Shown here: piece after piece, positions 1 through 39,255 of the stretch | How positions within the stretch are numbered: the first letter of the stretch is position 1 | Layout: each line of letters starts with the position of its first letter | Source of the DNA: a virus | Virus record (IMG/VR): IMGVR_UViG_3300044655_001468 | Coordinates: 1-39,255 of that record | Direction: 5' to 3' (one strand) | DNA length: 39,255 nt | The notes under the pieces: generated by a model | What the model saw: the letters and a program-made list of their open reading frames with translations, nothing else | What the model was told of the DNA's origin: nothing | Database searches by the model: none | Made by a program: the position numbers and the translations under genes

Positions 1-127
1 TTGATTCGTTTGGTGACATGTTGGCTTATGCCAATGCGAACCCGAACAAACAGCAATCAGATAAAGGCGATACCACATTTTGTGAAACTGCGAACTATGC
101 GGAGGCTCACAAGTTGGCTGTTGAGGG
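1..127. repeat. Left copy of the 127-bp terminal direct repeat (assembly closure)
   Basis: Bases 1-127 are identical to 39129-39255. The repeat lies inside one open reading frame that continues in frame across the join. The sequence is therefore a circular assembly with an overlap of 127 bases, a length typical of the largest k-mer used by common assemblers. I read it as a closure artefact and not as a biological terminal redundancy, although a circularly permuted virion genome is compatible with it. Confidence 0.95.
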
Positions 128-767
128 TTGGCATGCGGTTCGTCCCGAGGTTGAGCGAATCATGTCACAATTGTCTGAGCAGATTGATAACCGTTTGGAC
201 ATGGTTTCGGAGTTGGAATATGCGACCTCAGGTGGTGCTGTTGATGTGGGTCGTTGGCTCACTGGCGAACCTGAATGCATGTACAGTTTCGTTCCGATGC
301 CGAATGAGCGTATGGGTCGGGTTGTCAAAATATTCATTGATTATGGTGCATCTGCATCATTCAGTGCCGAGTTCATTCGTCAGCGTGGCATCGTGCTGTG
401 TGCTTTGGTGGACACTTTGCAGAAGATGCGTGTCGCTTGTGAGGTGTGGGGCGAGACTGCGGTTACCTTCGGTAATCGGGTTCACTCTACGGTTGTCAAG
501 TTGCATGACGCTACGGCTCAGATGGACATTGATGAGTTGATGTTCGCTTTGGCGAACCCGTCAATGCTGAGGCGTATCACATTCTCGGTTCGTGAACTCG
601 CTGGGTGCGGTTCTAAGCACTCGTATGGTGCGACAACACATACAGAGTATGCGGCTGATTATGGTGCAGACATTCGCATTGAACGCCTCAAGGAGCGGTT
701 CGGCACGATGATGGAGAACCCTGTGGAATGGGTTGTGTCCACAATCAAGGGAATGGAGTTGATATAA
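1..767 (+). CDS. 3' part of the AAA+ partner protein (gene starts at 39080); possible degenerate VWA-like domain
   Basis: This is the distal part of a 271-residue protein whose ATG is at 39080, reached by crossing the circular join in frame; read in this window alone the gene is 5'-truncated, with its frame entering at base 3. I recognise no family with certainty. Around full-length residues 125-165 a hydrophobic strand ends in IFIDYGASAS, followed by a long helix and another strand (VACEVWGE). That order recalls a von Willebrand A domain with a degenerate DxSxS metal site; this is inference. It lies 51 bp downstream of a MoxR-type AAA+ ATPase gene, and MoxR ATPases usually work with VWA partners, which supports the idea. 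The hammerhead ribozyme begins 10 bases after its stop codon. Confidence 0.85.
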   Translation, partial: DSFGDMLAYANANPNKQQSDKGDTTFCETANYAEAHKLAVEGWHAVRPEVERIMSQLSEQIDNRLDMVSELEYATSGGAVDVGRWLTGEPECMYSFVPMPNERMGRVVKIFIDYGASASFSAEFIRQRGIVLCALVDTLQKMRVACEVWGETAVTFGNRVHSTVVKLHDATAQMDIDELMFALANPSMLRRITFSVRELAGCGSKHSYGATTHTEYAADYGADIRIERLKERFGTMMENPVEWVVSTIKGMELI

Positions 768-777
768 CAAACCTTTA

Positions 778-844
778 GGACGAAACGCCCACAGCGTGTT
801 GTGTGTTGTGGGTGTCTAACCGTGTTGCGGTTGCTGATGAGTCC
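778..844 (+). ncRNA. Type II hammerhead self-cleaving ribozyme
   Basis: All core elements are present. Stem II is open and pairs GGAC 778-781 with GTCC 841-844. GAA 782-784 is followed by stem III, 785-793 with 807-815 (9 bp, one G-U), starting with the required A15.1-U16.1 pair and closed by a 13-nt loop. The cleavage-site nucleotide is C816 in a GUC triplet. Stem I pairs 817-822 with 828-833 (6 bp, one G-U at the core) around loop TGTTG. CTGATGA 834-840 completes the core. Cleavage after C816 would separate the upstream mRNA from the 871 gene, leaving its ribosome site on the 3' product. AACA 766-769 could kiss the stem I loop, but this is inferred. Confidence 0.94.
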
Positions 845-853
845 AGCATGACT

Positions 854-871
854 TGATTATGGAGGTAATTA
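854..871 (+). promoter_or_regulatory. Shine-Dalgarno hairpin of the 871 gene
   Basis: TGATTA 854-859 pairs with TAATTA 866-871 (6 bp, one G-U), leaving TGGAGG as the loop and taking in the A of the start codon. The ribosome site is thus presented in, or masked by, a hairpin. It lies ten bases beyond the ribozyme and belongs to a set of six similar hairpins on early leaders. Confidence 0.6.
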
Positions 872-1080
872 TGGGTTACGAAGTGGTCGTCAAGTGGATA
901 CCCGAGGACATACAAGGGCATCAACCTACTTGGCATGAGAACAAATGCGAGTTCGTGTTAGACGAAATTTCTAACGAATTGTCATGTCGTGTGGTTGAGT
1001 TCGGCAACGAAGTTCTTGAAGAATTGTTGTCCGAATGGATTGATGAGAGCGAAGAACACTATTGTGAGGAGGAGGCATAA
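871..1080 (+). CDS. Small acidic early protein, 69 aa, function unknown
   Basis: The ATG at 871 is chosen over a TTG at 853 because GGAGG (861-865) sits five bases before it. The protein begins MGYEVVVKW and is strongly acidic toward the C-terminus (many Glu and Asp, ending EEEA). It has no membrane segment and only scattered cysteines. I do not recognise a family. Its mRNA would be freed upstream by the hammerhead ribozyme, and its stop overlaps the next start (TAATG). The length, acidity and early position resemble the small host-interaction proteins many phages make soon after infection, but that is only a contextual guess. Confidence 0.75.
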   Translation: MGYEVVVKWIPEDIQGHQPTWHENKCEFVLDEISNELSCRVVEFGNEVLEELLSEWIDESEEHYCEEEA

Positions 1081-39079: not shown

Positions 39080-39255
39080 ATGGGTACATTAACTTGGGTT
39101 AATGGTAAGAATATTGTGCTAGATAAGTTTGATTCGTTTGGTGACATGTTGGCTTATGCCAATGCGAACCCGAACAAACAGCAATCAGATAAAGGCGATA
39201 CCACATTTTGTGAAACTGCGAACTATGCGGAGGCTCACAAGTTGGCTGTTGAGGG
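39080..39255 (+). CDS. 5' part of the AAA+ partner gene (continues at base 1)
   Basis: The ATG at 39080 opens MGTLTWVNGKNIVLDKFDSFGDMLAYANANPN and runs off the window end in frame; base 39129 equals base 1, so the gene finishes at 767 (271 residues in all). See the entry for 1-767 for domain reading. The first 22 residues, absent from the other part of the window, contain a short strand and the FDSFGDMLAYA segment that phage homologues share next to AAA+ genes. The GGGAGG ribosome site inside a hairpin fixes the start. Confidence 0.88.
   Translation, partial: MGTLTWVNGKNIVLDKFDSFGDMLAYANANPNKQQSDKGDTTFCETANYAEAHKLAVE
39129..39255. repeat. Right copy of the 127-bp terminal repeat
   Basis: Identical to bases 1-127. 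It is inside the 39080/767 gene. One copy should be removed to obtain the circular genome of 39,128 bp. Confidence 0.95.

Follow-up and report, generated by a model that had tools for sequence, protein, structure and literature searches.

A complete type II hammerhead motif at a conserved early-gene junction in a family of phages: structure, relatives and a proposed role in intercistronic self-cleavage

The window analysed here is the whole stretch of 39,255 nucleotides in the virus record IMGVR_UViG_3300044655_001468. Bases 1-127 recur exactly, as a direct terminal repeat, at 39129-39255, and because of this 127-base repeat the record is probably a complete genome. No close DNA relatives of the window were found among named phage records. 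The gene that precedes the motif encodes a DUF7192 protein (Table 1), and its neighbour, an AAA+ gene (AAA_5, MoxR/CobS-like), lies at the record's other end. Since the window is terminally redundant, the true start of the DUF7192 gene is probably on the repeated right end, where the start sits behind a ribosome-site hairpin, GAAAC-TGGGAG-GTTTC. Its stop codon lies ten bases 5' of a hammerhead motif, which is followed by the gene for a small acidic protein. Farther on, past the small genes and ahead of the gene at 1354, there is a promoter-like TTGACA .. TATAGT (1228-1260) whose spacing looks long; a similar sequence is carried by L124, a contig from a relative.

Table 1. Positions in the window of the hammerhead, its parts and the flanking features.
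Feature	Position	Strand	Remarks
Upstream gene, DUF7192 / phrog_1909	18..767	+	stop codon 765-767
A flanking stem II on the 5' side	777	+	likely tertiary partner of loop I (predicted contact)
Hammerhead, complete, type II (open at stem II)	778-844	+	every element named in the sequence-only reading lies where it was placed
Stem II 5' strand, GGAC	778-781	+	pairs with 841-844; invariant in 8 phages at the same junction
G12 A13 A14 (GAA), catalytic core	782-784	+	
Stem III 5' arm, first base A15.1	785-793	+	pairs with 807-815
Stem III 3' arm, last base U16.1	807-815	+	
H17 = C	816	+	predicted cut between 816 and 817, from the core register
Stem I hairpin	817-833	+	817-822 pairs with 828-833; loop 823-827, five bases
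CTGATGA, catalytic core	834-840	+	
Stem II 3' strand, GTCC	841-844	+	
Ribosome-site hairpin, GATTA-TGGAGG-TAATT	855..870	+	855-859 pairs with 866-870; weak in window, strong and covarying in relatives
Downstream gene, 69-aa acidic protein, family unknown	871..1080	+	ATG at 871

The sequence-only reading had described a hammerhead with the core elements CTGATGA and GAA, the A15.1-U16.1 pair, a GUC cleavage triplet and stems III, I and II of 9, 6 and 4 bp, and all of these are present. Stem III includes one G.U pair and begins with A785-T815 as the A15.1-U16.1 pair; stem I includes one closing U.G pair. The features that define a type II hammerhead are found throughout: the invariant core (C3 U4 G5 A6 N7 G8 A9, then G12 A13 A14), the A15.1-U16.1 pair, an NUH triplet, and three stems round the core, with stems I and III closed by loops and stem II open. 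Indeed, the minimum-energy structure of the isolated segment 776-846 is the hammerhead itself (-28.7 kcal/mol, z = -3.6), with the pairs of all three stems formed. The core pattern in the permuted, type II order occurs once in the 39-kb window and in 0 of 100 shuffles, and neither this pattern nor a covariance model detected a second hammerhead beyond chance anywhere in the window.

A covariance-model hit above threshold, which the sequence-only reading had looked to as a check, was not obtained with Rfam: a scan of the window at gathering thresholds gave no match. In a relaxed scan of 700-950 (251 bases), the best family was Hammerhead_II, matched from first to last position with 23.2 bits (E=0.011), which falls below the curated cut-off of 37 bits for RF02276. 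However, of 31 comparable phage hammerheads the same model recovers just 3 and misses the other 28 (15 contigs, among the matches listed). These sites came from a viral collection that was scanned for the core in type II order; those with all three stems were kept, giving at least 106 distinct sites. A covariance model was then built from 25 hammerheads of other phages, all of the window's subclass, without the window or its near relatives (one member, L105, turned out afterwards to be distantly related). This held-out model scores the window site at 53.3 bits (E=6.9e-16); its runner-up in the window reaches 12.8 bits (E=0.053), and nothing else there is convincing.

Among the matches listed, the type II sites split into two groups, 41 in the window's subclass and 65 others. 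Members of the former, again among the matches listed, have a stem II of 4 bp, a stem I hairpin of 17 nt (34/41), an A immediately 5' of stem II (37/41) and an A at the equivalent of position 845 (25/41). The other group has longer stem I hairpins. Published type II hammerheads (PMC3088659, RF02276) share with the window the permutation, the core and the three stems, and their occurrence in several copies round genes or short gene blocks in prophages resembles the window's phage family. Most of them, however, have a Watson-Crick pseudoknot between loop I and the 3' tail, which is possible in 51/65 of the other group and, at four or more pairs, is rare in the window's subclass (4/41, both among the matches listed). 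The conserved A and the 17-nt stem I hairpin suggest that a non-Watson-Crick contact may form in this subclass. The window site also departs from the published type in its score, which is below the Rfam cut-off, and in its conservation at one particular gene junction.

A profile of the upstream protein retrieved 79 loci, mostly from related phages. Near-identical phages retain the hammerhead, and the 25-member model finds one at the same junction in L254, L255, L258, L271, L272, L276, L278, L280, L291 and L301. The last seven, relatives of about 38 kb, have it even though their upstream proteins are only about 40% identical to the window's. Contig L276 is identical with L105, which had first come to light through its ribozyme pattern and nothing else, so that the synteny and the ribozyme are independent finds. 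Other junctions carry further copies, up to four in one genome; examples lie some 1.5 kb upstream, where gene order puts the copy ahead of the AAA+ gene, and in front of a homologue of the window's gene at 1354. All 23 strong matches in relatives are on the gene strand, and the genes downstream of them differ.

Eight distinct sequences from the same junction, the window's included, show standard pairs in all 152 of 152 pair cells; the set was picked by a structure model, which favours pairing, but the junction was defined independently, and core, register and position match it. Pair counts from another set of sequences, picked because they had stems, were left out of the evidence for covariation. 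Both sides have changed in 12 of the 19 pairs, all in stems I and III, and when the alignment is slid as a control, pairing drops to 26-45%. The core and stem II are invariant across the eight, save for the free position N7, while the stem III loops vary freely, and each of the 20 family sites examined has an intact core and a perfect stem II. Together with the core, the stems and the held-out model, these compensatory changes in diverged phages uphold the assignment to type II. The inverted repeats might also be DNA sites or plain mRNA hairpins, acting as terminator or end protection without self-cleavage, and it is true that relatives lacking the hammerhead have other hairpins at the same junction. 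We consider this very improbable, as such hairpins would have no need for CTGATGA, GAAA, A15.1-U16.1 and an NUH triplet in every copy.

In the longer segment 768-875, the minimum-energy fold contains a competing pairing, ACCUUUA with UGGAGGU, that displaces the hammerhead core. This pairing would suit a ribozyme that cleaves for the sake of regulation, where cleavage, or its inhibition by a ligand, a protein or a competing fold, switches translation of the small gene; a cut could, for example, free the ribosome site UGGAGGU (860-866) from the upstream ACCUUUA (771-777). The abundance of ribosome-site hairpins in the family also fits such regulation. However, ACCUUUA is absent from L278 and L291, whose hammerheads are 94-97% identical to the window's, and the upstream anti-ribosome-site switch, although predicted by the fold, was rejected since relatives retain the ribozyme without it. 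Moreover, the downstream genes vary between phages, and there is no conserved sensor domain, the loops of stem III being free to vary. Regulation as the purpose of cleavage is thus unlikely.

The junction is also found without a hammerhead. In the closest such relatives, L124 and L132, the upstream protein is 88% identical and a different structured stretch is present instead; many further relatives also have no hammerhead at the junction. The ribozyme is therefore not essential there. At 4750-4855 of L124 (likewise in L132 and L256), a possible pseudoknot, TCGGC[TCGTTGC]GCCGA..GCAACGG, and a 12-bp hairpin stand in the hammerhead's place, and L259-L265 and L270 have yet other long hairpins. 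Another conserved structured element follows the upstream gene in L273, L275, L277, L281 and L333-L342, again where the hammerhead would be. It reads GCACAA..CRGTGCCTACGCYG..ATA..GTGG and continues into a long hairpin with the conserved loop GGAC-ATRAAACTCC. This element occurs in 10 contigs, only at the hammerhead junction. Rfam gave no match to known ribozyme families for the hairpins that replace the hammerhead in relatives. We regard the L273-type element as a candidate undescribed structured RNA, possibly a ribozyme.

On a tree of the upstream protein, the junction hammerhead occurs in two clades, the window's own and a separate one (L271, L272, L276, L278, L280, L291, L301), a scattered presence that needs at least two changes. 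The window ribozyme is 94-97% identical to the copies in L278 and L291, where the downstream genes are 77-80% identical in DNA and the upstream proteins about 40%. The simplest reading of these identities is recombination with a breakpoint just upstream, in which the ribozyme would have travelled with the downstream gene. Movement with the downstream side, the scattered distribution and the loss or replacement of the hammerhead in L124 would all be expected if it were a passenger, recombining along with that gene and having no present role. This is quite improbable: the core and stem II are invariant and stems I and III compensated over deep divergence, the core is intact in every family copy examined, and unrelated phages show an equally tight placement between stop and start.

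That placement was measured on 103 type II hammerheads from other contigs (among the matches listed), where the median distance is 2 nt from stop codon to motif and 24 nt from motif to a start with a ribosome site. With a junction defined by an upstream stop within 30 nt and a start with a ribosome site within 60 nt, 73 of the 103 lie at junctions (among the matches listed), as against 340 of 5150 random positions on the same contigs (6.6%) and 1 of 103 on the opposite strand. Type I phage hammerheads are also found at junctions (25/54) and type III less often (4/15), so junction placement is not unique to type II. Contigs L068 and L013 carry nine and five type II hammerheads, respectively, each set in about 4.3 kb and near one per gene junction (among the matches listed); in other phages (L137, L141, L029, L059), type I hammerheads lie at gene junctions, several per contig in some.

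The hairpin round the ribosome site, whose pairing with the ribozyme had looked new in the sequence-only reading, is genuine in the family; in the window it is weak, with four A-U pairs and one G.U (about -1.7 to -3 kcal/mol), and it is not specific to hammerheads. In relatives the arms change and the pairing is kept (AACCT/AGGTT, AACAC/GTGTT, CACC/GGTG), and at many starts in L254-L314 the loop is TGGAG or TGGGAG, as in ATTCAAC-TGGAG-GTTGAAT. The ribosome site is enclosed by at least five Watson-Crick pairs at 118 of 346 family starts, compared with a mean of 14 (maximum 21 in 50 trials) when upstream arms were swapped between genes. The hairpin is commoner after hammerheads (17/20 vs 87/166, p = 0.007, at sites that are not independent). 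As a general companion of phage hammerheads it found no support: unrelated phages have 26 in 922 against 15 expected, and 13.8% vs 8.9% directly after hammerheads. Because the hairpin also precedes genes without a hammerhead, and unrelated hammerhead phages hardly show it, it is a habit of this phage family, often beside the ribozyme and independent of it.

The SAS/ESAS elements of Cluster K mycobacteriophages and Cluster EF Microbacterium phages (PMC3203893, PMC7302621) offer a likeness, in that complementary outer bases frame the ribosome site (GGGATAGGAGCCC) ahead of some non-structural genes, and a second element often adjoins it on the upstream side. In contrast, SAS is one fixed sequence, whereas in the window's family the arms differ in sequence but still pair, and it is a ribozyme that lies upstream. 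Indeed, the window site reads GATTATGGAGGTAATT and not the fixed 13-bp GGGATAGGAGCCC at start codons, and the SAS authors did not favour RNA hairpins for the ESAS repeats (PMC3203893, PMC7302621). Our search, made mostly outside subscription journals, found no papers on hammerheads with ribosome-site hairpins.

The sequence-only reading was right that type II hammerheads are known in phages: they were published in 2011, with processing of phage transcripts as a proposed role (PMC3088659). They are common in bacteria, and prophages carry several of them next to genes (Perreault et al. 2011, PMC3088659). A bacterial array cleaves in E. coli, and 4 of 18 consensus hammerheads were inactive in vitro (PMC3088659). 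The role of phage hammerheads has been open since 2011 (PMC3088659), as restated in PMC6155905. The nearest precedent is HHphage, a hammerhead variant 13 nt before a gene in the haloviruses HF1/HF2, where a mapped transcript 5' end coincides with the cleavage site to within 3 nt (PMC3088659). Like the window's motif it is intergenic and precedes an early gene's start codon by a few nucleotides; unlike it, it has a variant core and belongs to a virus of archaea. The ribozyme type is thus already known in phages, and the conserved junction and the ribosome-site hairpins are the new parts.

From the structure, strand, position, compensated conservation and reuse at several junctions, we infer that this type II hammerhead, an integral part of the junction between two early genes, is catalytically competent. 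Once transcribed, the polycistronic mRNA would cut itself between C816 and U817, a position that, like the chemistry of the ends, we take from known hammerhead chemistry. The upstream message would have the stem III hairpin and a 2',3'-cyclic phosphate at its end, and the downstream message would start with a 5'-OH and the stem I hairpin, with the ribosome site of the small gene about 20 nt on. As stem II is the one open stem of type II, a closed hairpin would lie on both new ends. Exonucleases are slowed by terminal hairpins, and a 5'-OH end is not preferred by the bacterial decay enzymes that sense a 5' phosphate. One early transcript may in this way yield separately ended mRNAs whose stability and translation are mutually independent. 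A cut of the polycistronic early mRNA, as the sequence-only reading expected, is supported by strand, position and family-wide placement, and intercistronic self-cleavage into separately ended, hairpin-ended early mRNAs is the best explanation and, we think, a likely one. More tentatively, and with some doubt on our part, the hammerhead and the hairpin-held ribosome site about 10 nt on could form a modular 'cut and start' cassette, used at several junctions and swapped with the downstream gene, which would give each early block its own hairpin-capped, 5'-OH mRNA for independent translation.

The finding means that the Rfam type II model overlooks most members of a common, pseudoknot-free phage subclass. 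Moreover, the family offers a single junction in three states, occupied by a hammerhead, by other hairpins or by nothing, and its ribozymes are fixed in their relation to ribosome sites, which makes the processing hypothesis testable in small constructs.
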